Source: a virus. Taken from it: a DNA stretch of 41,350 nt. The DNA lies in IMG/VR virus record IMGVR_UViG_3300031857_000446, positions 1-41,350 of that record. One strand, 5' to 3'. This document shows, one piece after another, positions 1-41,047 of the stretch. Below the pieces are notes generated by a model that was not told the origin of the DNA, did no database searches, and saw only the letters and a program-made list of their open reading frames with translations. The translations under genes and the position numbers were made by a program. Each line of letters starts with the position of its first letter. The first letter of the stretch is position 1.

Positions 1-311
1 CTGCGGTAGATGCAATAACCAACTTAGCTAATCAACAGCAACAGCAACAAAACGCCTTGTTGAACATGATGATGAGTGACAAGACTGAGGGCGCTAAGAT
101 AAAATCTTACAAAGAGCTGTTTGGGGAAGATTTGTTTGGCAGTAGTTACATTCCGCCTTCTGCGCTTGGGGCAAGTGACGGTTTCTCAGGGATGCCGATG
201 CCAATGCAAGGGATGCAGCAGGAGCAAGATTCTGGGGATGACGAGTTTTCTAATGGTGGTCGCGTAAACAGTACTGACGTTGACACTTTGTTACAAATTT
301 TGAGGAGTTAA
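1..311 (+). CDS. C-terminal part of a virion-region protein (5' end outside window)
   Basis: The reading frame starting at base 3 is open from the left edge to the stop at 309-311, so this is the tail of a gene that begins outside the window. The visible part opens with a glutamine tract (CAA/CAG codons at about 33-50), then a Met-rich stretch, and ends with a Gly-Gly motif (FSNGGRV) and a Leu-rich tail. The same [FY]-x-x-GG-x-V motif recurs in the next virion genes. The stop lies 1 nt before the next gene, which has its own GAGGAG ribosome site inside this coding end. No enzymatic domain is recognised; a structural or assembly role is inferred from position only. Confidence 0.6.
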   Translation, partial: AVDAITNLANQQQQQQNALLNMMMSDKTEGAKIKSYKELFGEDLFGSSYIPPSALGASDGFSGMPMPMQGMQQEQDSGDDEFSNGGRVNSTDVDTLLQILRS

Positions 312-312
312 T

Positions 313-2748
313 ATGGGCCCGATTTTAGAAGGTGTATATGGCAGCGATTACGGAAAAAAGGTTCCAGAAGGCGGGACTAATGATAAACCGTTTAACCTTA
401 ATGAACTAATTGGCATCTCCCCCGGAAGTACTTCGCAATACAGTAATGCAGATTCTCCCAGCAATCGTGACATTGAACGAGACTACAATCTTTTAAATCG
501 CTCAGGCATTACCAACGCCATCAACGATCTTTTTGGAAGCAATCTTTCTGGTAAAGATATAGCAAGCCGTGTTGCCGTTCTTGGTGGTGGCTTAGCTGGC
601 GGCCTTGGTGCTTTTGCACCCAACAGACAGAAGATTGGATACCAAGGTGGCATTCCCAAGTTCACCGCAGAGCGCAATATGGTGACTGCTCCTCCCGCTG
701 GCAGCCGTCCCGGTGCTGGTGGTGTTAACTACGGCGGGGATGTAAATTACGTGCGTCAACCCGGATCTCCTTCCACGTCTTCTGGTGGCGGTGGTGGAGG
801 CGGCGGTTTTGATTTAGGAAACGTAGCCAAAGTAGCTGGTGGCGCTGGATTGGCTGCGTTGCTTGGCAACTATCTTAGTAAGCCCGGTGGGATTAGCAAC
901 ATTGCGTCTATTTTTAAAGGAATGGGCGATAGCGCTCCAGTAAGCAATCAAGGTGGAAGCACTCGTAGGACTGGAGAACCAACCACACCCGCAGGAACAC
1001 CAGATGAATTTGCTGGGATTGATGAACAGATTAGAGCCAATCTACTGCGGCAGCTTCCAAATCAGTTAAACGAAGAAGAAATTCAAGCTGAGTTTGATCG
1101 TCTTCGTGGCGAAATACCAGAGTATGAAATGCCAGTGTATGAAGAGCCAATGTTTAACCCTTCTTTCTACGAAGATGAGGTTCAGTACGCTAAGGGCGGT
1201 AACGTAGATAGCCCTCGATATCTGCAAGGGGAGACTGATGGTATGGCTGATAAGATTCCAGCACGTATTGGCCGCGATCAACCTGCCGCGTTAAGCCACG
1301 GCGAGTTTGTTGTCCCTGCGGATGTTGTGTCTCATTTGGGCAACGGCAATTCTGATGCCGGAGCTAAGAAGCTGTACAGCATGATGGACAAGATTCGTCA
1401 AGCCCGTACCGGCACAAAGAAACAAGGCAAGAAGATTAACCCCGACAAGTTCATGCCCGGTGGTTTGGCAAATGCTTATGCCGAAGGCGGATCAGTTAAG
1501 CGATATCAAACTGGTGGCGCTTTGCCCGCTGGCGTAACAGGCTCGGAGCAAACACTTGCAAGCTGGACTGGTGACTATGTGCCTAACATGCTTGGTAAAG
1601 CTGAGGCTTTGGCTAGTGCCCCATATCAACAGTATGGCGGCCCTTTATCGGCTGGCGCTTCCGGTCTACAACAGCAAGCATTCCAAGCGGCAGGTAATCT
1701 GTCTGTGCCCAGCAGTGTTGGTCAAGCTACGCAGACTGCGGGCGATATTGCTGCCAAGGCTCAAGGCATAAGCTACGATCCAACAAAGTTTGATAGCCAG
1801 TTCAAAGCACCAGAACTCTCTGCTGCCACGCAGTTTACAAACCAGTTCAAAGCACCCGACCCGTACCAAAGTACAACGTTTAAATCAGGTACTTTTGGTC
1901 AAGAGCAAGCCCAACAGTACATGAATCCGTACTTGCAAGCTTCTTTGAACCCACAGCTGGAAGAGGCTCGCCGTCAGTCAAACATTAGCGAGCAAGCAAA
2001 CAAAGCCGCGATGACCAAGGCCGGTGCTTTTGGTGGTGGCCGTAGCGCTATTTTGACCGCAGAGAACCAACGTAACCTTGGCACTAACCTAGCTGGTATT
2101 ACTGGTAAGGGTTATGACACTGCGTTCCAGAATGCTATGTCTCAGTTCAATGCTGACCAAGCCCGTAACATGCAGGCACAGCAGGCATCTGAGCAGTCTA
2201 AGCAATTCGGTGCTACTCAGGGTATGACCGCCGCTGACATGATGGCTAAGTACGGTATGTCTGCACAGCAAGCTCAAGAAGCTGCACGTCAGTTCAACCA
2301 AGGCCAGTCTATGACTGCGGCTCAGCAAGCTGCTCAGTACGGTCAAGCCGCTCAACAAGCATCCGAGCAATCCCGTCAGTTTGGTGCAAACTTGGGTCTA
2401 CAAGGTCTTCAGACCGGTCTGCAGGCTGCACAGACGCAAGGTAACTTGGGTATTTCTGGTGGTCAGTTGGGCTTGGCTCAGTTGCAAGAACAGTCACGTC
2501 TTGGCGCTACTCAGCGTGGTATTGAAGCTGAAGGTATTGCAGCGGACAAGGCTGCGTTTGAAGAAGCTCGTGCCAACCCATACAAGATGCTTCAGTTCCA
2601 GCAGTCCATGCTCCAAGGCTTGCCAATTTCTGCAACTAACTACTCAATGCCGGAGCCAGACGCTCTTACCAATGCGGCTCGTGGTGCGACGACTGTGAAT
2701 CAGTTACTTAAAACTTTGGGTCTTGGAGGGTCCGGATCCCCAAAGTAG
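313..2748 (+). CDS. Virion structural protein, Gly/Gln-rich, with probable -1 frameshift extension
   Basis: An 811-residue protein with ATG at 313 behind GAGGAG. Residues 1-250 are Gly/Ser/Pro-rich with a run of eight glycines and a short hydrophobic Ala/Gly/Leu segment. Around residues 308-365 lies a block common in phage tail-region proteins, with the hallmarks LSHGEFVVPADVVSHLG and then AGAKKL. Two YA-[KE]-GG-x-V motifs flank it (nt 1186-1206 and 1477-1497). Residues 540-760 are Gln/Ala-rich with quasi-repeats (ASEQSKQFGA / ASEQSRQFGA), suggesting a long helical or fibrous segment. It is followed by a slippery heptamer at the stop codon and a stable hairpin, so a longer form of about 931 residues is expected. 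Position between other late genes and family resemblance indicate a tail or internal virion protein; the exact role is unknown. Confidence 0.75.
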   Translation: MGPILEGVYGSDYGKKVPEGGTNDKPFNLNELIGISPGSTSQYSNADSPSNRDIERDYNLLNRSGITNAINDLFGSNLSGKDIASRVAVLGGGLAGGLGAFAPNRQKIGYQGGIPKFTAERNMVTAPPAGSRPGAGGVNYGGDVNYVRQPGSPSTSSGGGGGGGGFDLGNVAKVAGGAGLAALLGNYLSKPGGISNIASIFKGMGDSAPVSNQGGSTRRTGEPTTPAGTPDEFAGIDEQIRANLLRQLPNQLNEEEIQAEFDRLRGEIPEYEMPVYEEPMFNPSFYEDEVQYAKGGNVDSPRYLQGETDGMADKIPARIGRDQPAALSHGEFVVPADVVSHLGNGNSDAGAKKLYSMMDKIRQARTGTKKQGKKINPDKFMPGGLANAYAEGGSVKRYQTGGALPAGVTGSEQTLASWTGDYVPNMLGKAEALASAPYQQYGGPLSAGASGLQQQAFQAAGNLSVPSSVGQATQTAGDIAAKAQGISYDPTKFDSQFKAPELSAATQFTNQFKAPDPYQSTTFKSGTFGQEQAQQYMNPYLQASLNPQLEEARRQSNISEQANKAAMTKAGAFGGGRSAILTAENQRNLGTNLAGITGKGYDTAFQNAMSQFNADQARNMQAQQASEQSKQFGATQGMTAADMMAKYGMSAQQAQEAARQFNQGQSMTAAQQAAQYGQAAQQASEQSRQFGANLGLQGLQTGLQAAQTQGNLGISGGQLGLAQLQEQSRLGATQRGIEAEGIAADKAAFEEARANPYKMLQFQQSMLQGLPISATNYSMPEPDALTNAARGATTVNQLLKTLGLGGSGSPK

Positions 2749-2776
2749 ATTCCGCCGCGTCTTCGGATGGCGGCGG
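2739..2776 (+). promoter_or_regulatory. Programmed -1 ribosomal frameshift signal
   Basis: The heptamer C CCA AAG (2739-2745) fits X XXY YYZ in the frame of the 811-residue gene and abuts its TAG stop (2746-2748). Six nucleotides later a hairpin starts: left arm 2752-2761, cUUCGg tetraloop 2762-2765, right arm 2766-2776 with one bulged G (2770). That is 10 base pairs, of which 8 are G-C. The -1 frame is open from 2712 to the stop at 3105-3107. No U-run follows the hairpin, so a terminator is unlikely. Confidence 0.8.
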
Positions 2777-3107
2777 GGGCTTGGGTTTAGGTTTAGGTTT
2801 GGCTGGTGGTTTAGCTGCGGCGGCGGCACGCCCTGCTGAGCCTGAGCCTATGTTTACGCCAAGGCAAGAACCGTCTTATGCGTATAACCCACCGCCTCCT
2901 GAGCCACCACCGCCACCACCGCCGCCTCCGCCTTCTGCTCCGCCACCAACTCAGGACTTTTCTGAAGAGCAAAATCAGGGAACATTCCAGTTTGACGGCA
3001 CAGGTGGGTTTGGGCGTTCTGGAGGCTATGGCCGAGATTTGGATGACCGGTATTACAACCAAATGTTTGCCAAGGGCGGTTTAGTAAATCTTCTCCGTAG
3101 ACGCTAA
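2745..3107 (+). CDS. Proline-rich C-terminal extension reached by -1 frameshifting
   Basis: This open frame continues the upstream virion gene after a -1 slip and would add 120 residues. It has an Asp/Ser/Gly-rich linker, an Ala-rich stretch, a PPPPEPPP-type polyproline run, an acidic/glutamine segment, then FAKGGLV and an Arg-rich end. The only start-like codon near its beginning is TTG at 2781, with no spaced Shine-Dalgarno other than a G-run, so independent translation is less likely than frameshift expression. The terminal [FY]A-K-GG-x-V motif matches motifs in the two flanking virion genes, which supports this being a real virion protein segment. Function unknown; the polyproline part could bind another virion component. 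Confidence 0.65.
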   Translation, partial: VDSAASSDGGGGLGLGLGLAGGLAAAAARPAEPEPMFTPRQEPSYAYNPPPPEPPPPPPPPPPSAPPPTQDFSEEQNQGTFQFDGTGGFGRSGGYGRDLDDRYYNQMFAKGGLVNLLRRR

Positions 3108-3151: not shown

Positions 3152-4939
3152 ATGGGTATTGAACAACTTGTTGATGCGTTTAAGGGCAACCCACAGCCCT
3201 TGCAGGCCAAAGTACAACAGGCTCAGCAAGGTCAACCGCCCGGAGCCATTCCGCCCGATCTGGAAGAAGCCATTGCACTTCAGAAAATCACTGAGCTGCG
3301 TAACAGTGCGCAGAACCAACAAGCTATGCAGGCTGGCGGTGCTCAGCCGTCTGTTGTAGAAAAGCTACGCCAGATGTTAAGTGCTGAACAAAGACAACAA
3401 GCTCAACCTTCACAGATGCCACAAGGTATGCCTCAAGGCCCACAAGGACAACCACCTATGCCACAAGGTCAACCACCCATGCAAGGACAACCCGTTATGG
3501 CCGCTGGCGGAGGAAGCATCGCGCAGCTTATGTCTAATCTTGGTCGCCACTATGCAGGTGGCGGTATCGTTGCATTTAACGGTGAAGATGAAAGCCGCGT
3601 TGAGGACGAAGACGTAAAGAAAAAGCTCCAACAGTACACCTTGCAACAACAAGGTGCCGACTATGTTGCGCGTAAACAAGCCGCACGTCTTGCAGAAGCA
3701 GAAGATGAAGCTCGTCGTCAGGCATTGATGTCGCAAATCCCAACCGGCGGCAGAGAAGCCCCTGCCTCTACGGGCCGTATGTCCGGTGAGTTTGAGCGAA
3801 ATTTAAGCAATACATTGGCCGCTATGCCCGGCGCTAGTGTAATGAAAGCATTTAGTGGCAGCGGTCTTCGTGGCTTAATGGGTCTGTTAGGTATTGCGGG
3901 TGATCGGGAAGAAAAACCGGCGGCAGCTACACCTCCCGCTACCTTGGATGCAGAATCCGAGAAACTCAAACGCTTGGCTGCTGTTAAACCCCAAACGGGA
4001 CAAAGCACTAACCCTGATTTAGTACCCAGAAAGCCAATAGTGGGAACTTCTCCTGACGACATTAGACCCGCACCGTCTCGTGCAACTACTGGCGGTGTAG
4101 ATAGCGCGCCCATGCCAAGCGGTTTGGCTAGTCTGCCATCAGTGGGCGTTGGCCGCGACTACGAAAGAAAAATGCTTGCTGAAAATCAAAAATTTGATCC
4201 CGAGGCATACAAGCAGAAATTCTTACAAGAAGTTGGCCGTAAAGATCTTTCTGTCTATGACGAAATGGCCGCCGAACTTAAAGCCCGCAAAGAGCGCCTA
4301 AAAAACCCAGAACCCGGTTTTGATTCTTTGATGGAGTACTTGGGTGCAATTGCAGAGGGCGGGGGCCGCAACTGGATGGAGTCTGGAGCCAAAGGCGCGT
4401 CCAGAGTAAAGGCATTGCAAAAAGAACGTCAAGCCCAACAAGATGCTTTGGTTGATAGGATTCTTGACATTGGTTCCAAGAAGAAAGAAGCCGAATACAA
4501 CGAAAGACTTGGCTTGTTTAACCTTACCAAAACTGAGCAAGACAGAGTTAAATCTGAAAGCAAAGACATCGCTAAATCTCTTGGTTTGTCTGAGGACAAA
4601 GAAATCGAGCAGCGTCAGCAAATGACTATTGAGATGATGCGGATAAAAACTCAAAAAGAAATTGAAGCAAGTAGGGCTGCCAGTCGTGTGGCTGGATCAG
4701 GAGCTGGCGATAAACAACAGTTAAATGAACTTAAGGCATTGCAAACCAGCCTAAAAGACCAGCTAAAAGACCCCCGCATGATGGGTAAAGCCGGTGATGA
4801 TTTGCGCCGCCAATTGGCCGCTGTTAATGCTGAGATTGCAAAAATGGCTGGGCTTAGTACAATGGCAACAGCCCCCGGCGCAGCAAGCCCCGGCGGAACC
4901 AGTACCTCCGGCTGGGGTAAAGCCCAAGTCGTTAAATAG
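3152..4939 (+). CDS. Virion-region protein, Gln/Pro-rich with coiled coil
   Basis: A 595-residue protein; ATG at 3152 follows AAGGA at good spacing. Residues 1-130 are Gln/Pro-rich (QGQPPMPQGQPPMQGQP). Near residues 133-142 is YAGGGIVAFN, again the [FY]A-x-GG-x-V motif. Residues 150-185 and 350-520 are Lys/Glu/Arg/Gln-rich and predicted coiled coil by eye. The C-terminus is Gly/Thr/Ala-rich. It lies between the frameshifted structural gene and the giant polyvalent protein, with only 9 nt to the latter. No enzyme motif seen. Likely a minor virion or internal core protein; this is inferred from position and composition. Confidence 0.6.
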   Translation: MGIEQLVDAFKGNPQPLQAKVQQAQQGQPPGAIPPDLEEAIALQKITELRNSAQNQQAMQAGGAQPSVVEKLRQMLSAEQRQQAQPSQMPQGMPQGPQGQPPMPQGQPPMQGQPVMAAGGGSIAQLMSNLGRHYAGGGIVAFNGEDESRVEDEDVKKKLQQYTLQQQGADYVARKQAARLAEAEDEARRQALMSQIPTGGREAPASTGRMSGEFERNLSNTLAAMPGASVMKAFSGSGLRGLMGLLGIAGDREEKPAAATPPATLDAESEKLKRLAAVKPQTGQSTNPDLVPRKPIVGTSPDDIRPAPSRATTGGVDSAPMPSGLASLPSVGVGRDYERKMLAENQKFDPEAYKQKFLQEVGRKDLSVYDEMAAELKARKERLKNPEPGFDSLMEYLGAIAEGGGRNWMESGAKGASRVKALQKERQAQQDALVDRILDIGSKKKEAEYNERLGLFNLTKTEQDRVKSESKDIAKSLGLSEDKEIEQRQQMTIEMMRIKTQKEIEASRAASRVAGSGAGDKQQLNELKALQTSLKDQLKDPRMMGKAGDDLRRQLAAVNAEIAKMAGLSTMATAPGAASPGGTSTSGWGKAQVVK

Positions 4940-4948
4940 AGACGCAAC

Positions 4949-7900
4949 ATGCCACTGTATCGCATCACAGCACCAAACGGACAAACGTACCAAATTGAGG
5001 GCCCGCCGGGGGCAAGTGATGCGGAGGTGGCGCAAGCGGTTCTTGCGCAGAACCCCGAGGCTGGAACACCAAAACCAGAACAAACAGTTCTGGGCAACGT
5101 TAAAGAGTTGGTCAAGGGCGTTCTGCCCGGTGCTGTTGGGCTGGTTGAAAGCGCAGCAACCGGTGCCTCTGCATTATTGCCAGAGGACATAGAGAAAACC
5201 GCCCGTGAGAAAATCAAGTCTGTAGCCACATCTGCCAAACAGCCATTCACTGCCGCCGCTGGGTATGAAGAGTCCGTAGGTCGTCGACTTGGTGAGGGCT
5301 TAGGCTCAATCGTCCCTGCCGTTCCATTAGCCTTTATGGGTGCCCCCGGTATCGCTGCCGGTATCGGTATGGGTTTGGCATCAGGCGCTGGTGAAGCACG
5401 CACTCGTGCAGAGGGCGAAGGGGCTACTGCAGAACAACGCAGCAAAGCTACGGCTTTAGGCACTCTTCCCGGTGGGTTTGATACAGCCATTGATATGGCC
5501 CTTGCAGCTCTTCCCGGCGGTGTCGGTAAGTCTTTGAGTGTTGTCCGCAGGGCGTTAATGTCCGGTGGAGTTGAAGGCGCTACGGAAGCTGCGCAAGCCA
5601 TCGCCCAAAACGCTATTGCCAAAGGCGTATATAAACCCAGTCAAGCGTTGCTTGAAGGCTCTGGAGAAGAAGGCGCATACGGCGCTGGTGTTGGTGCGTT
5701 AGCCAGTGTGTTGCTGGATATGGCAATTCCCGGACGTCGCGCACAGAAACCCTCAACGCCAACACCTCCACCCCCTGCTGAGCCCGGCCCGCAGATAGCC
5801 CCCGAAGCGCCCGTAGGTACGCAAGGTGCCTTGTTTAGCGAAGCGGAAATGGGTGAGCGTGTGCCTACCCCTAAAGAAGAGCCCGCTGCCCAGCCTACGC
5901 CTGCCGCGCCCCAAGGTGAACAACTTGGACTAGGCTTAGATTTCCAGCGTGACTACGCAGATATTGTCAAAGAGCGCGAAACACTCAAACAACAGCCACA
6001 AACTCCTGAAGTCAAGGCCCGTGTTGCCGAACTAAACGATATGGTCTTGGGCCTGCACGAGCAGGAAGTTGCAAGTATTCGTGCAGAAAAACAAGCGCAA
6101 GCAGAGTTGCAGGAACAATTCCCCGGGCTGTCACAACAGCCTGCACAAGCGAGTTTGTTCCCCGAAATTGACGTAGTCCGGCCTGAAGCTGCGGAGATGG
6201 AGCAGCCAAGACCTACGATATCTATACAGCAGGAAGAAGCCCGCCGCAGGCTGCAGGAAACACAAGACCAAGAAGCTGCGGATATTGCGCAAAAAGAACA
6301 AGAGCGTAAAGGCGGCCAGTATCGGTTGCCATTGCGCACCGTGCCTGAAGATAGAAACGTAAATCGCAACCTGCCTATCCCTGCCCGCCCAACAGAAATC
6401 ACCATGCAGGACTTGGAAGACATCGGCGTTCCCATGCGTACTTCCCAAAAGTGGATGGAGCAAAATGTAATTGGCAAAACCCCTGCGGAAATCCAAGTAC
6501 TTGTTGGTAATAACCCAGACTTGCTGTTGGGTACAGGCTCTCGCGCTCAGATATTGAAATACTTGACTGCGCCCGTACCTGAAGGCTTTAAGGAGGAAAC
6601 CCGTGTCCCGACCCCTACCAAGACGAATCTGCCTAAGCCAAGACCTCAGCCCGGACGAGGTGAGCCAAGCGTGGGAGTACCTAGTGAGCTTACCAGCGCC
6701 GAACTTGTACAACCCCGAGCCAGAGTATCCGCCCCCGCCAGAACACCTGCAGCACCTGACCGACTCCGATTGGCACCTGCTGGACAACCTGTTAGCGAGG
6801 GAGTTGATGTTACGGGAGAGGCTCAGCCTACACTAAATGCACCTGTTACTCCTACTCCTGCTCCTATTGTTGCTGCCCCTGCCGCACCTGTTGAAAAACC
6901 AACGAAAGCTGCTAAGCCAGCTCCTAAAGCTGCCCCTGCCAAAGAGATTAAAGCACCGCCTGCTCCTGAGGCTCCTAAGTCTGTAAAAAGTCGACACACT
7001 CGCTTGCAAGACATCATCGACGACGAGTCCATACCAGCCGCCACCCGCAAGCAGGCTGAGAAAAACATGGATGCGTTGGATGACCCAACGATGAACGCGT
7101 CCGCTGCAGATCGTAAAGGCAATGAAGACTACGTTGACAAATTTCTGACCCGTGTTGAGGGGCTACGCTCTGTTGCCAAAGCTGACGGTCAATCACTTGA
7201 CGCACTGAAAGATGAAGTCAAGAACTCTAAGGGTGTGTTGGGCACAGCACTGCGCCGCATGGTGCAGTCAGGCAAAGTTGTGCTGGAAGAAGCGCATCCA
7301 TCAGGCAAAAAGATCGGTGGTATTTACGACGGCGAGAAGGTTACGCTGTATGCAAATGGCATCCCATCCGGTAGCTCGATGGCGGTAGCACTGCATGAAG
7401 TTGGTGCCCACCTTGGCATGGAGAAACTGCTCGGGAAGAAACAATACAACGCCGTCATTGACCGTATCTTGGACATGGTTGCAAAGGGCGATGGCTCTAC
7501 CGAAGCTAAGATGGCGCAGACCGCGTACAAACGCATCCCCATGTCCGACTTCAAACGAGGCGTGGGCCGTGACGAAATGGTCGCCTACTTCATCGAAGAG
7601 ATGGCGCTGTCTGAAGCTGCTGGCACGCTGCCAAAGGTTGGCCCCCTGCGAGTCTTGTGGGGTCAAATTAAAAATGCAATCGTCACATCGCTCAACAAAG
7701 CGTTGGGCACAAGCTTTGGTATCAAAGACCTATCGGCGCAGGACATCCTAGCAATTGCCAAGAGTTCGTTCGTATCTGAGGCTAAAACCGCCCCCACCAA
7801 AGGCGAAGTCAAAGAGTTGTTCTCTACATCCTACACACCGCAAGACGTTGTGAATAGTATGGGGCCACTGACACCCATAAATGAGCGCGGGCTCAAAGGG

Positions 7901-10438
7901 CTAATCAAAGGCGTCGAGAAAGAAGGCGACCCCTCTGCAGGAGTTAAGTTCCGCGTGGCGGTGGCAGACTCGGCTGCCGCTATTGAAGAGAAGTTTAGCC
8001 GTACCTTTAACGGTGCAGTGCGTGATTCAATGGGCAAACTTAACCCAATGGGTCTGTATCGTCAGGCACAGGATTACAGCAAACTTCTGCTGGAGTACTT
8101 CCAAAAAGGCGCCCTGACCAAGGACAAAACTACAGGCCAATACCGTGTCGAGTCCCTGAGTGACGGCGCTCCAATGGATGTGTTTGACATCATCTACGCA
8201 TGGGGTGAAAAGACAGGCCGCACCAAAACAAAAGCCGAACAATTTGCAAGTCGTGTGGTGGAAGCTAAGCGTTTGGACGAAGTGCTCAAGGTTAATCCGG
8301 ACTTCCCCAAGCAGATTAATGACAGAGACCGTGCGGTCTTGGTTGCGGAATACAACTCCGATCCAATTTATGCCAAGATGAATGAGGCAATGGACAAGCC
8401 GCGTCTCGCATTGATTGACAAGATGGTTGACGTAGGTCGCCTATCTAAAGAAACTGCTGCTGAGTGGAAGTCGGTAGTGGGCTATGTGCCATTTGACCGC
8501 ATTGATGATTTCTCTGAAAAGTTTTCTGCTGTTAAGCGCACAACCGGTCGCTCGCCATTGGCATTGACCAAAGACCCCAAGTTGGTTGGTTCGTTTGATC
8601 GTCCAGTTGGCAATGTGTTTGAAAACTACTTGAACACCATGGGCTGGATGGTCGGCCAAGTGATGAAGAACGATGCTCGTATCCAAACACTGCGCGCCTT
8701 GGAAGACTTAGGTTTCGCCAAGTTCACACGCGGTAGCCCCGGCACGGCAAGCAAGACCGCCAAAGCGTATGTCAACGGCGAGCTAATGTATTGGGAACTG
8801 CCATCCGAATATGACGCTGCCGCTTTCCAAGACCTTAACCCACCCAAAATGGCGTTCATGCGCACACTGGGTGCCTTCTCTAACATTCTGCGTAAGTCAG
8901 TCACAATCTTGCCACCGTTCGCATTGAAGCAGGTAACGGATGACGTGCAGCGTGCGATGCTTACATCTGGTGTGAAGAACCCCGGTGCGCTGCTGCGTAT
9001 GTCATTGGCTAACTTTGGCAAGCTGGCCGTGTCTGAGCTGCGTGGTATTCAGCATCCAATTGTCAAGGAGTTTGGTGCGCTGGGACTGACTGGTGAGTAC
9101 GACTTTGAGGCTGGCAAGCCTGCCGTTTCGTTACTAAAAGACTTAGGCTATCGTGAACGCGAAGTTGCAGGGTCTAAAACACTGGGCACAATCTTGCACC
9201 GACTCGATGGTATTACTCGCGCATCTGACTTGGCCGTTCGTAAAGCAATCTACGAGCAAACAATGCTAGAAACCAACAACGACAGATTGTTGGCACAGAC
9301 CCGTGCCCGTGAGTTCATCAACTTCCGACGCCGTGGAGCCAGTGAAATTATTGCGGTTGGCACAGCCACTATTCCGTTCTTTAACGCCTACGTGCAAGGT
9401 ATGGACGTTCTGTATCGCGCAGCATCTGGCAAGGACTCAAGCTCGTCGGTTGGTCGTGCTCAAGCCCGTCAATTGTTCTGGAGTCGTGCCGGTACTGTGG
9501 CCGCGTTGAGCGCCCTGTATGCGCTGATTGCAGGAGAAGATGAAGACTACCAAGACATGGACTTGCGGACTCGCAACGGCAACTGGATTCTCCCCGGTGG
9601 GTATAAGATCCCTGTGCCGGGCGAACTGGGCGCTATCTTCAAGGTAATTCCTGAGACCGTGGTTGAGTACTTGCGTCGCTCCGGTACGCCTGAAGAGCAG
9701 ACTGCTCTGGAAGCCATCCGCGCATCTGCTAAGTACATGGCAGAGCAATACATTGAGCGCACTGTGCCAATCCCACAAGCGGTCAAACCACTGATTGAAG
9801 CGTGGACAAACTACTCGTTCTTCACGGGGCGCGAACTGGAAGGTATCTACCAAAAGCAGCAAGATCCTAGCATGCGGACTACGTCTAGAACGTCTGAGTT
9901 GGCACAAGCTATCTCTAACTTTAGCCGTGACGTGATTGGTGTTGATGCCGTATCACCCATCCAGATTGACAACATGCTCAATGGCTACTTTGGCTCTACC
10001 GCCGCGCTTGTGACAATGATGACAGACAGCTTGCTGAACCCAACGCGAATCGACCGCCCACTGCACAAGTACGCACTGCTGAGCAACTATCTGTATGACC
10101 CAATTGGCACTCGTAGTTTGACTGAGTTTTACGACGAGCGTGAGAAAGTTGGTAAAGCCAATAACACTCTGCGTCAATTGATGAAGACTGATATTGCACG
10201 AGCTGAAGCCTACGCTGACGCGCACCAAGAAGAACTGGCGCTTGAGTCTGCAATAAACTCCACGCTTGAGCAGCTTGAACGCACTCGTGCTTACCGTAAA
10301 TTCTTGAACAGCCCCGACGGTGCTGCAGATATGAGTAAGGAAGAGCGTGAGTCAGAACTCAACGAAATTAAAAAGATGGAAGTTGAGTTAACCGGTTGGC
10401 TGCGGGAAGCCAAAAACGAAATCCGCAAGGCTCAGTAA
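4949..10438 (+). CDS. Giant polyvalent virion protein with zincin-like and LPD38-like regions
   Basis: An 1829-residue protein, probably packaged in the virion and delivered with DNA, as proposed for phage polyvalent proteins. The first 40 residues (MPLYRITAPNGQTYQIEG...) form a small module often placed at the start of such proteins. Residues 90-265 are Gly/Ala-rich with possible membrane-active helices. Residues 270-690 are low-complexity Pro/Ala/Glu linkers with a coiled coil. Near 816-821 lies HEVGAH, a zincin-like motif with spacing HExxxH. The C-terminal third contains a segment matching the LPD38 type (around 1480-1580, with RNGNWILPGGYKIPVPGELG). Start ATG sits behind GAGACGC. A second reading frame at 6603-6836 looks coding. 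The stop overlaps the stop of the convergent gene by 7 nt. Confidence 0.75.
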   Translation: MPLYRITAPNGQTYQIEGPPGASDAEVAQAVLAQNPEAGTPKPEQTVLGNVKELVKGVLPGAVGLVESAATGASALLPEDIEKTAREKIKSVATSAKQPFTAAAGYEESVGRRLGEGLGSIVPAVPLAFMGAPGIAAGIGMGLASGAGEARTRAEGEGATAEQRSKATALGTLPGGFDTAIDMALAALPGGVGKSLSVVRRALMSGGVEGATEAAQAIAQNAIAKGVYKPSQALLEGSGEEGAYGAGVGALASVLLDMAIPGRRAQKPSTPTPPPPAEPGPQIAPEAPVGTQGALFSEAEMGERVPTPKEEPAAQPTPAAPQGEQLGLGLDFQRDYADIVKERETLKQQPQTPEVKARVAELNDMVLGLHEQEVASIRAEKQAQAELQEQFPGLSQQPAQASLFPEIDVVRPEAAEMEQPRPTISIQQEEARRRLQETQDQEAADIAQKEQERKGGQYRLPLRTVPEDRNVNRNLPIPARPTEITMQDLEDIGVPMRTSQKWMEQNVIGKTPAEIQVLVGNNPDLLLGTGSRAQILKYLTAPVPEGFKEETRVPTPTKTNLPKPRPQPGRGEPSVGVPSELTSAELVQPRARVSAPARTPAAPDRLRLAPAGQPVSEGVDVTGEAQPTLNAPVTPTPAPIVAAPAAPVEKPTKAAKPAPKAAPAKEIKAPPAPEAPKSVKSRHTRLQDIIDDESIPAATRKQAEKNMDALDDPTMNASAADRKGNEDYVDKFLTRVEGLRSVAKADGQSLDALKDEVKNSKGVLGTALRRMVQSGKVVLEEAHPSGKKIGGIYDGEKVTLYANGIPSGSSMAVALHEVGAHLGMEKLLGKKQYNAVIDRILDMVAKGDGSTEAKMAQTAYKRIPMSDFKRGVGRDEMVAYFIEEMALSEAAGTLPKVGPLRVLWGQIKNAIVTSLNKALGTSFGIKDLSAQDILAIAKSSFVSEAKTAPTKGEVKELFSTSYTPQDVVNSMGPLTPINERGLKGLIKGVEKEGDPSAGVKFRVAVADSAAAIEEKFSRTFNGAVRDSMGKLNPMGLYRQAQDYSKLLLEYFQKGALTKDKTTGQYRVESLSDGAPMDVFDIIYAWGEKTGRTKTKAEQFASRVVEAKRLDEVLKVNPDFPKQINDRDRAVLVAEYNSDPIYAKMNEAMDKPRLALIDKMVDVGRLSKETAAEWKSVVGYVPFDRIDDFSEKFSAVKRTTGRSPLALTKDPKLVGSFDRPVGNVFENYLNTMGWMVGQVMKNDARIQTLRALEDLGFAKFTRGSPGTASKTAKAYVNGELMYWELPSEYDAAAFQDLNPPKMAFMRTLGAFSNILRKSVTILPPFALKQVTDDVQRAMLTSGVKNPGALLRMSLANFGKLAVSELRGIQHPIVKEFGALGLTGEYDFEAGKPAVSLLKDLGYREREVAGSKTLGTILHRLDGITRASDLAVRKAIYEQTMLETNNDRLLAQTRAREFINFRRRGASEIIAVGTATIPFFNAYVQGMDVLYRAASGKDSSSSVGRAQARQLFWSRAGTVAALSALYALIAGEDEDYQDMDLRTRNGNWILPGGYKIPVPGELGAIFKVIPETVVEYLRRSGTPEEQTALEAIRASAKYMAEQYIERTVPIPQAVKPLIEAWTNYSFFTGRELEGIYQKQQDPSMRTTSRTSELAQAISNFSRDVIGVDAVSPIQIDNMLNGYFGSTAALVTMMTDSLLNPTRIDRPLHKYALLSNYLYDPIGTRSLTEFYDEREKVGKANNTLRQLMKTDIARAEAYADAHQEELALESAINSTLEQLERTRAYRKFLNSPDGAADMSKEERESELNEIKKMEVELTGWLREAKNEIRKAQ
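6603..6836 (+). CDS. Nested small gene inside the polyvalent protein gene
   Basis: A 77-residue frame lies wholly inside the giant virion gene in a different frame (+1 relative to it). Its GTG start at 6603 is preceded by a full Shine-Dalgarno AAGGAGG (6590-6596) with a 6-nt spacer, one of the best ribosome sites in the window. The product looks protein-like: SPDEVSQAWEYLVSLPAP, then PPPPEHLQHLTDSDWHLLDN, ending RERLSLH. This resembles small phage proteins with an LxxLTxxDWxxL core and a terminal LH, from memory. In the host frame the same bases give a low-complexity Pro/Ala/Arg linker, as expected if one frame is free to drift. Function unknown. Confidence 0.55.
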   Translation: MSRPLPRRICLSQDLSPDEVSQAWEYLVSLPAPNLYNPEPEYPPPPEHLQHLTDSDWHLLDNLLARELMLRERLSLH

Positions 10439-23525: not shown

Positions 23526-24037
23526 GCCTGCCCTACCACTCCATGCCTAGTCGAGCCATGCCTGCCTTGCCATACCAGACCGCACCTTGCCTGTCCTCAA
23601 CGCAACGGGCCTGCCTTGCCAAACTCCGCCACACCTCACTGCGCCTTGCCACGCCGTGCCTGCCATACTGAGCCCGTACCGCGCCATGCCATACCGAACC
23701 AAGCCCATCCTAGCCTGCCTTACTTCGCCCGACCCCGCCATAACGAGCCGTGCCGTGCCGTGCCTGCCTGCCTTACCGAACCCGTCCTAGCCTTGCCGTG
23801 CTCCGCCTAACCTTGCCTGCCGAGCCAAACCCGACCACTCCATACCTAGCCCTTCCCCGCCGAGCCACGCCTGCCGTGCCGAACCTAAGCGCACCACGCC
23901 ATGCCAATCCGAGCCTAGCCTGCCGTGCCATACCCCGCCGCACCTGATCGTGCCCTGCCGGTCCCCGACGTGCCTGCCGTGCCCAGCCAAACCGAGCCTT
24001 GCGGTACCTTACCCCGCCGGGCCCAGCCTCGCCTGCT
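23526..24037. repeat. Degenerate pentanucleotide repeat (NNNCC on +, GGNNN on -)
   Basis: About 510 bp filling the whole gap between two - strand genes. On the + strand CC dinucleotides recur every 5 nt (atgCC, ttaCC, gaaCC, tagCC...), occasionally reset by a 4-nt step tgCC. On the - strand, the coding strand of the operon, this reads GG-N3-GG-N3. Individual units differ, so it is a spacing pattern, not a simple tandem copy. Frames remain open in several phases because units rarely make stops; none has a spaced ribosome site, so no protein is called here. Confidence 0.85.
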
Positions 24038-38473: not shown

Positions 38474-41047
38474 ATGGCTACTAATATGTTCCCCTCATTG
38501 TCGCAAGCTCCACTGGGCTTGGACGCGTTGGACGATACGGGCGACATGCCCGTGATTGAGATCGAGATTGAGAACCCCGAGGGTGTTCGCCTAAATATGG
38601 ACGGCACGGTCATTGACTTGATGCCCGGCGATGTGACTGAAGTGTCGTTTGATGCCAACCTTGCCGAGGACATGGACTCCGGTGAGCTTCAGAAAGTAGC
38701 CAGCGACATTATTGAGATGGTGGACGCAGACATTAACTCCCGCAAAGAGTGGGTGGACATGTACGTCAAGGGCTTAGATGTTTTGGGGATGAAATATGAA
38801 GAGCGTACTGAGCCATGGTTGGGGGCGTGTGGTGTATTTTCGACTGTTCTTACCGAAGCTGCCGTTCGTTTCCAGAGTGAGACGATTATTGAAACGTTCC
38901 CAGCGGCGGGTCCAGTTAAAACAGAGATTGTCGGTGCGATTGACAAACTTAAGGAACAAGCGGCGGAGCGTGTAAGAGATGACATGAACTACCAGCTCAC
39001 CGAGGTGATGACTGAGTACCGCCCAGAGCATGAGCGCATGTTGTACAACCTTGGACTGGCCGGTGCAGCGTTCAAGAAAGTTTATTTTGACCCGTCGCTT
39101 GACCGTCAGGTGGCGATGTTTATTCCTGCTGAAGACATTATTATTCCGTATGGCGCGTCCAGTGCCAACACAGCAGAGCGTTTGACTCACGTCATGCGCA
39201 AGACCAAGAATGACTTAAAGAAATTACAAGTCGCGGGCTTTTACGTTGATGAAGACTTGGGTGAGCCTGTTGCGATTCACACAGACGTAGAGAAGAAGAA
39301 AGCGGAAGATCAGGGTTACAGCCTGACAGACGACGACCGCTATCAGATCCTTGAGGTGCACATCGACTACGACCTGCCCGGTTATGAAGACGAAGATGGC
39401 ATTGCGCTTCCTTATGTTATTACCATTGAGCGCGGCACTAGTACAGTGCTCGCCATCCGTCGTAACTGGGAAGAGGATGACAAGAAGAAATTAAAACGCC
39501 AACACTTCGTACAGTACACATACGTACCCGGCTTCGGTGCTTATGGTCTTGGCTTGATCCACTTAATCGGTGGCTATGCCCGTGCAGGCACTTCCCTGAT
39601 CCGTCAATTAATTGACGCTGGCACGCTGTCTAACTTGCCCGGTGGTCTTAAGACTCGTGGTCTGCGTATTAAGGACGACGATACCCCAATTAGTCCCGGC
39701 GAGTTCCGGGATGTGGACGTGCCCAGTGGCTCGGTTAAAGATAACATCATGGCGCTGCCATACAAAGAACCGTCACAAGTTCTGGCAAGTCTCTTAGATA
39801 AAGTAACCGAAGAAGGCCGCCGTCTGGGTTCTATTGCTGACATGAACGTTAGCGATATGTCCGCCAACTCCCCAGTGGGTACAACGCTGGCTCTGTTGGA
39901 GCGTCAGCTCAAGACGATGTCTGCTGTTCAAGCGCGTATTCACTACTCAATGAAGCAAGAGTTCCAGCTTCTGCGCAACATTATTCGTGACCATACGCCA
40001 GAAGAGTACAGCTACGACCCAGCAGAAGGTGATCGTCAAGCCAAGCAAGCTGACTACGACATGGTGTCGGTAATTCCAGTCAGTGACCCCAACAGTGCAA
40101 CGATGGCGCAGCGCATCATGCAGTACCAAGCTGTTATTCAGCTGGCTCAAGGCGCTCCACAGATTTATGACTTGCCCTTGTTGCATCGCCAGATGATTGA
40201 GGTTTTAGGCATCAAAAACGCAGACAAGCTCGTGCCGATAGATGACGACCAGACTCCTCGTGACCCTGTGTCTGAGAATATGTCGTTCTTAACCGGTAAG
40301 CCGACTAAAGCGTTTATCTACCAAGATCACGATGCTCACATTGCTGTACACACATCAATGATGCAGGATCCGATTGTGATGGGGCAGATTGGTCAGAACC
40401 CGATGGCTCAGCAGATCCAAGCTGCGATCATGGCTCACGTTTCAGAGCACGTTGCGTTCCAGTACCGTCAGAAAATTCAGGAGCAACTGGGCGCTACATT
40501 GCCAGCACCCGATGCTAAGTTGGATGAGAACGCCGAAGTGCAGATCTCTAAACTGGTGGCTCAGGCTTCTACGCAACTTCTTGCAATGGACAAGGCTAAA
40601 CAGGCTCAGCAGCAAGCTGCTCAACAAGCCCAAGATCCAATCATTCAGATGCAACAAGCTGAACTTCAAATCAAGAAACAAGAAGCTGAAATCAAAGCAC
40701 TCAAAGTCAAGGGTGACTTGCAGCTCAAGGCTGAAGAGTTGTCACTCAAGGCACAAGAAAGCGCGACTCGCGGTGGCGAAGACCCAGCACTTGCTGCGAT
40801 GCGACTACAGCAAGAAATTGCTCAAGCTCAAGAGTTGCATGGCTTAGAGATAGCGGCTAAACAAATGGAGTTGCAGCAAGCGCAAGCTCAGCAACAACAA
40901 GCCCAGATGCAACAGCAGCAAGCTATGGCTCAGCAGCAAGCTCAGGTTCAGCAGAAGATGGCTCATGGCGGGCAAGTCCATGAACAGAAGATGAAGCATG
41001 CTGATCTAGACAGAATTCAACGGTTATTACAAGGTAATAAGGAGTAA
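38474..41047 (+). CDS. Portal protein, podovirus-type
   Basis: An 857-residue portal. The core includes RKEWVDMYVKGLDVLGMKYEE, TEPWLGACGVFSTVLTEA, RAGTSLIRQLIDAGTLSNLPGG and a conserved SPVGTTLALLERQLK segment (about 460-474), all typical of large podovirus-like portals. Residues 690-857 are Gln/Ala/Lys/Glu-rich, a long coiled coil ending in a basic tail; this extension may reach into the capsid. ATG follows AAGGACACACA. It would form the dodecameric DNA gateway for the terminase upstream. Confidence 0.85.
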   Translation: MATNMFPSLSQAPLGLDALDDTGDMPVIEIEIENPEGVRLNMDGTVIDLMPGDVTEVSFDANLAEDMDSGELQKVASDIIEMVDADINSRKEWVDMYVKGLDVLGMKYEERTEPWLGACGVFSTVLTEAAVRFQSETIIETFPAAGPVKTEIVGAIDKLKEQAAERVRDDMNYQLTEVMTEYRPEHERMLYNLGLAGAAFKKVYFDPSLDRQVAMFIPAEDIIIPYGASSANTAERLTHVMRKTKNDLKKLQVAGFYVDEDLGEPVAIHTDVEKKKAEDQGYSLTDDDRYQILEVHIDYDLPGYEDEDGIALPYVITIERGTSTVLAIRRNWEEDDKKKLKRQHFVQYTYVPGFGAYGLGLIHLIGGYARAGTSLIRQLIDAGTLSNLPGGLKTRGLRIKDDDTPISPGEFRDVDVPSGSVKDNIMALPYKEPSQVLASLLDKVTEEGRRLGSIADMNVSDMSANSPVGTTLALLERQLKTMSAVQARIHYSMKQEFQLLRNIIRDHTPEEYSYDPAEGDRQAKQADYDMVSVIPVSDPNSATMAQRIMQYQAVIQLAQGAPQIYDLPLLHRQMIEVLGIKNADKLVPIDDDQTPRDPVSENMSFLTGKPTKAFIYQDHDAHIAVHTSMMQDPIVMGQIGQNPMAQQIQAAIMAHVSEHVAFQYRQKIQEQLGATLPAPDAKLDENAEVQISKLVAQASTQLLAMDKAKQAQQQAAQQAQDPIIQMQQAELQIKKQEAEIKALKVKGDLQLKAEELSLKAQESATRGGEDPALAAMRLQQEIAQAQELHGLEIAAKQMELQQAQAQQQQAQMQQQQAMAQQQAQVQQKMAHGGQVHEQKMKHADLDRIQRLLQGNKE

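Follow-up and report, generated by a model that had tools for sequence, protein, structure and literature searches.

A probable programmed -1 ribosomal frameshift extending a putative ejection-type phage protein with a proline-rich tail

A gene at one end of a viral genome fragment very probably gives two products, the longer of which would be made by programmed -1 ribosomal frameshifting and would carry a proline-rich tail on a protein of DNA-ejection type; from the sequence comparisons below we put the probability of this full account at about 0.9. Programmed -1 frameshifting at 2739-2745 is in itself close to certain on the comparative evidence, and the full account is somewhat less so because it includes an inferred function. 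The sequence studied is one linear IMG/VR record, a fragment of 41,350 bases, which is called the window throughout, and its features are collected in Table 1.

Table 1. Features of the window that bear on the frameshift cassette and its neighbourhood
Feature	Position	Strand	Remarks
Upstream structural gene, 3' end	3..311	+	ends FSNGGRVNSTDVDTLLQILRS; same kind of tag in homologues of most relatives
Zero-frame ORF, 811 aa	313..2748	+	probable DNA-ejection (internal virion) protein, short product; ORF call
SD-like GGAGGG, possible 5' stimulator	2725..2730	+	8 nt upstream of heptamer; anti-SD duplex
Slippery heptamer C_CCA_AAG	2739..2745	+	X_XXY_YYZ register in zero frame; identical in 12/12 sequences
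Zero-frame stop TAG	2746..2748	+	abuts heptamer; TAA or TGA one codon later in six relatives
3' stimulatory hairpin (putative)	2752..2776	+	10 bp, one bulge, UUCG loop, spacer 6 nt; folding
-1 frame tail, 120 aa + stop	2745..3107	+	open in 12/12 sequences; purifying selection; proline- and glycine-rich
C-terminal tag of tail, FAKGGLVNLLRRR	3066..3104	+	GG[LI][VI] and LLRR kept in aligned tails
Next structural gene, 595 aa	3152..4939	+	no PHROG or Pfam match
1829-aa protein, probable large internal virion protein	4949..10438	+	phrog_18222 and phrog_9854 matches, both of unknown function
Portal protein	38474..41047	+	phrog_1216 portal 2.5e-23; C-terminal MAHGGQV...RIQRLLQGNKE tag

The shift site at the end of the 811-aa frame

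The ORF ends in TCC CCA AAG TAG. The first-pass annotation had described here a heptamer C CCA AAG right before the stop codon, a 10-bp, singly bulged hairpin with the loop UUCG after 6 nt, and a -1 frame uninterrupted for 120 codons as far as 3107, and the sequence bears out all three: the heptamer and TAG occupy 2739-2745 and 2746-2748, the stem arms at 2752-2776 are CCGCCGCGUC and GAUGGCGGCGG, closed by UUCG and with one bulged base, and the -1 frame, reading CCC AAA GTA GAT and so on, stays open past the heptamer to a TAA at 3105-3107. On the whole, the 43 ORFs of the window have 21 in-frame X_XXY_YYZ heptamers, among which this is the only one with both a long -1 frame beyond the stop and a strong hairpin. 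When stability is ranked in segments of 40 and 45 nt, one of 809 segments of the zero-frame gene folds as stably as the hairpin. For its composition the hairpin is moderately unusual taken alone (z of -1.7 to -1.8), and since this score is modest, the case for the cassette rests on the relatives.

Frameshift efficiency at sites of this kind varies with the tRNA-Lys of the host. C_CCA_AAG is described as highly shift-prone in E. coli (PMC5009743), which may not be the host here. Upstream of the heptamer, the duplex with the anti-SD reaches -9.8 kcal/mol in seven of the 12 sequences that have the cassette and is weaker, from -4.0 to -5.9, in the other five, and the SD-like GGAGGG may thus be an extra stimulator that is not universal in these 12. 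Rfam and tRNA scans of the window gave no matches.

Conservation of the cassette and of the tail

When viral contigs were scanned for the 811-aa protein, 76 loci were obtained. The cassette is present in 11 further IMG/VR contigs (L001-L009, L019 and L070), coming from ten metagenome identifiers; all of them carry CCCCAAAG, and their -1 frames are open for 121-276 codons counted from the heptamer. An alignment of relatives had been proposed as a check on the conservation of heptamer, stop and stem. It upholds the heptamer and the 6-nt-spaced hairpin in all 11 tail bearers, and, with the window included, all 12 sequences have exactly 6 nt between heptamer and stem; the stop is the part that does not stay fixed, changing in kind and position, always 0 or 3 nt past the heptamer. 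Two sub-types are seen, one with TAG directly after the heptamer and the stem CCGCCGC/GCGGCGG, the other with an extra codon (AGG or AAG), then TAA or TGA, and the stem CCCCC-U-CC../..GG-C-GGGGG, and the 6-nt spacing is constant despite the differing stop and the two unlike stem sequences. In addition, a 6-nt deletion in L004 and L009 takes away only the apical part of the hairpin. The z-scores of the hairpin are modest across the cassette sequences, from -0.7 to -2.0. Because the arrangement is conserved in 11 further contigs, chance and sequencing error are excluded.

A second protein search with the tail, together with two DNA-pattern scans, returned the same 11 contigs and no others. In the 59 more distant relatives without the tail there is no cassette and no heptamer-plus-tail, and no stable structure follows the stop (median -3.8 kcal/mol, best -11.3 kcal/mol); two of the 59 have AAAAAAT by chance, without a tail. 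The cassette bearers form one group with support 99 on a quick protein tree, on which a single change is needed, and as judged from this tree the cassette is confined to one clade and was gained once. In the tail-less relatives the protein stops close to where the zero-frame product does, which suggests that the short form is the protein of ancestral length. In L026 and L048 two neighbouring genes take the place of the one that encodes the 811-aa protein, and in the window protein these two seem to be fused.

The tail itself has 22 prolines with a longest run of 10, the -1 frame product ends MFAKGGLVNLLRRR, and the peptide predicted at the junction is ...GSGSPK-VDSAASSDGG.... Compared with L006, the closest informative pair, 19 of 23 differences in the -1 frame are synonymous, with a dN/dS of 0.06. 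Over all tail pairs the median dN/dS is 0.32, probably raised by misalignment within the proline repeats, and changes are about twice as frequent at third codon positions as at first or second ones. By these measures the -1 frame is under purifying selection of the type expected from translation. The tail lengths vary widely among the relatives and the frame is never broken. Tail segments of L002, L004 and L070 are also 70-92% identical to in-frame segments of another protein, a phrog_4287 DNA-ejection protein, where they are located in a proline-rich N-terminal region and belong to an ordinary ORF that has a start codon of its own, showing that these peptides are elsewhere encoded in the usual way. 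In this phrog_4287 ejection family (L102:1-1604 at the start of contig G001; L108-L187), about 20 of 80 members have a long in-frame proline-rich N-terminus, composed of the modules that also make up the frameshift tails. That these proline-rich ejection genes of other phages might be frameshift products too was considered and rejected, as they have their own starts.

Three other origins of the tail have to be weighed against ribosomal frameshifting. The tail ORF could be a separate gene, begun by re-initiation or at an internal start, for which a TTG at 2781 opening a 108-aa ORF and, in L070, a GTG overlapping the zero-frame stop are at hand; however, the TTG is absent in L070 and sits just past the hairpin without a classical SD, the GTG is GTA in the other members, neither start accounts for the invariant heptamer and the fixed spacing of the hairpin, and the codons from the heptamer to the TTG are conserved as -1 frame protein, all of which makes this origin very improbable. 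Even less credit is given to slippage in transcription rather than on the ribosome. It would make use of the CCCC and AAA runs at the shift site, but these are short (3-4, up to 5 C in L070) against the runs of about 9 A or T on which slippage is described in the cited review, and a hairpin conserved at +6 nt is in keeping with slippage on the ribosome. The least probable origin is an artefact of sequencing or assembly, or a gene decaying after a frameshift mutation. Although a single-base error could split one ORF in two, the 12 contigs, which stem from at least ten metagenomes and differ in stop codon and stop position, all show the same arrangement, and the tail is under purifying selection, contrary to error or decay; the comparative data refute this origin. 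Programmed -1 ribosomal frameshifting is therefore the reading kept below.

The extended protein and its neighbours

The 811-aa protein of the window matches no PHROG or Pfam family. In its family of 36 members, whose alignment (A4) covers the C-terminal half of the protein, eight match the phrog_4287 DNA ejection protein (best 1.4e-18), the window copy not being among them, and members of the family can be aligned with the protein of G001 (the contig of L070) that matches phrog_4287, the pairwise match being weak. G001 has in turn the portal, head protein genes, the ejection-type protein, a tail fibre, holin and endolysin, then the frameshift gene, and the match to the phrog_371 major head protein is a separate gene (L103:5774-6682). 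On these grounds we consider the extended product likely to be an internal protein of DNA-ejection type, an assignment limited by the fact that it is relatives, not the window protein itself, that match phrog_4287. The claim of the first-pass annotation that a structural protein receives a proline-rich extension is supported, and is refined to most likely a DNA-ejection protein. The frameshifting may also be real and the protein another virion part, such as a tail or head-vertex protein, which would agree with its lack of a PHROG or Pfam match and with a weak tblastn match to a protein annotated as tailspike in phage phiM5. The phrog_4287 matches and the place of the gene before two large structural ORFs speak against this, and we regard it as a possible but less likely identity.

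Further searches add little to the ejection-type assignment. AlphaFold2 on the A4 alignment gave a model too poor to inform (pLDDT 54, pTM 0.25), a profile search of the PDB had no match and Pfam nothing useful, a search of genome contigs found no relative and thus no host clue, and a search of the phages collection had four distant matches only.

The -1 frame was said to end with FAKGGLV, a motif shared by adjacent virion proteins, and this holds on counting: [FYM]xxGGxV is found in five of the nine plus-strand ORFs (the tail counted as one) vs one of 39 minus-strand ORFs. In most of the relatives examined the upstream gene, too, has a related tag at its end, such as FSNGGRVNSTDVDTLLQILRS or MATGGHLDDLLAEQMTVDDLLKLLR. 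The portal tag is present in the window and in G001 and absent in three relatives without the cassette, a small comparison of two against three. More generally, a GGx[VLM]...LLxxLR tag recurs on several structural proteins of the window (282-308, 3066-3104 and 40958-41044) and on the upstream genes of L016, L028, L033, L056 and others. We hypothesize that GGxV...LLxxLR is a docking tag. The 1829-aa product is probably a large internal virion protein, as suggested by its size and place.

Some repeats in the window are recorded here for their own sake. Short in-frame tandem repeats of 18 nt (40913-40965) and 21 nt (3440-3492) lie in the portal gene and the 595-aa structural gene respectively. 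At 23540-24035, about 500 nt without an evident gene, CC recurs every 5 nt: the 109 CC form 67 pairs spaced 5 nt apart and 61 spaced 10 nt apart, vs 5-14 at most neighbouring distances. The composition is 46% C and 21% G, the phase of CC drifts, and Tandem Repeats Finder detects only a small part.

Predicted products and comparison with known systems

In the mechanism we propose, most ribosomes would translate C CCA AAG in the zero frame and terminate immediately, and the 811-aa protein that they make would correspond to the whole protein of the cassette-less relatives plus a few residues (GGSGSPK). A minority, detained by the hairpin that begins 6 nt further on, would move back by one nucleotide on CCC AAA, in many members with assistance from the SD-like GGAGGG upstream, and these ribosomes would add the 120-aa flexible proline-rich tail that ends in the GGxV...LLRR tag. 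The protein would then be packed in the head as a DNA-ejection protein, with a minority of copies extended, and the tail might act as a long flexible arm carrying the docking tag. The tag occurs on the neighbour protein family-wide and, among the few portals compared, only on those of the frameshifting clade, so that it may serve to position a few subunits in the virion. More speculatively, the frameshift ratio might set the number of ejection subunits bearing a polyproline arm and the GGxV...LLxxLR tag, and the stoichiometry of the ejectosome might thus be under translational control, an idea we rate as doubtful.

If the proposed mechanism is true, phages tune the make-up of the DNA-ejection machinery by ribosomal frameshifting, as is the case for capsid and tail proteins. 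One ejection protein has the proline-rich modules in its normal frame and another would gain them by frameshifting, which would also show signals arising when a mobile segment lands out of frame. Gene callers split such a product, so the full protein would be missed in annotation, and the shift site is compact and amenable to E. coli reporters. A limited literature search, which is no proof of absence, did not find an earlier report of a frameshift-extended ejection protein with a proline-rich tail.

The first-pass annotation had set this gene apart from the tail assembly chaperones for which phage frameshifts are best known, a contrast that was overstated, since frameshift-extended structural proteins are already known in T7/T3 gene 10, Lactobacillus phage A2 and the Listeria phages A118, A500 and PSA (PMC5009743). 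Frameshift extension of phage structural proteins is thus established, and we call the extension of an ejection-family protein a new variant of it. In T7 gene 10A/10B and T3 gene 10, a -1 shift late in a structural gene yields a minor form with a C-terminal extension, as is predicted here, and both gene 10 products are in the capsid (PMC5009743). T7 and T3 extend the major capsid protein, and T7 uses a partly slippery site with a distant 3' stimulator; here the gene is of the ejection family, the heptamer is canonical and the hairpin adjacent. A capsid extension of the T7 type was rejected, as the major head protein match in L103 is a different gene. Virion proteins are likewise extended in PSA, A118, A500 and A2 (PMC5009743). 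In those phages, however, it is the major capsid or tail shaft protein that is extended, by a +1 shift in some cases, and A2 gains an Ig-like domain, unlike the -1 shift and the proline-rich disordered tail here. Lambda gpG/gpGT also has its -1 shift at the end of a phage morphogenesis gene, of a different family. Neither gpG nor gpGT is part of the virion; they link the tape measure to the tail tube. A chaperone of this type was rejected because the gene does not lie between a major tail protein and a tape measure; no tape-measure or tail-tube match is found among the neighbours, and portal, head, holin, endolysin and tail-fibre matches lie elsewhere.

Outside phages, the cassette is similar to that of E. 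coli dnaX, with its A_AAA_AAG, SD-like upstream element and 3' stem-loop, and, just as in the window, the dnaX of some bacteria has its zero-frame stop immediately behind the shift site; dnaX is a cellular polymerase gene, however, and in E. coli its shift yields the shorter product, unlike the present case. Related in content are the phrog_4287 ejection proteins (L108-L187 and L102:42-1601), which have tail segments in common with the frameshift gene at 70-92% identity and a distant similarity to it in the ejection domain. Their proline-rich part is N-terminal and read in the normal frame from its own start, whereas in the present gene it is C-terminal and would be reached by frameshifting.
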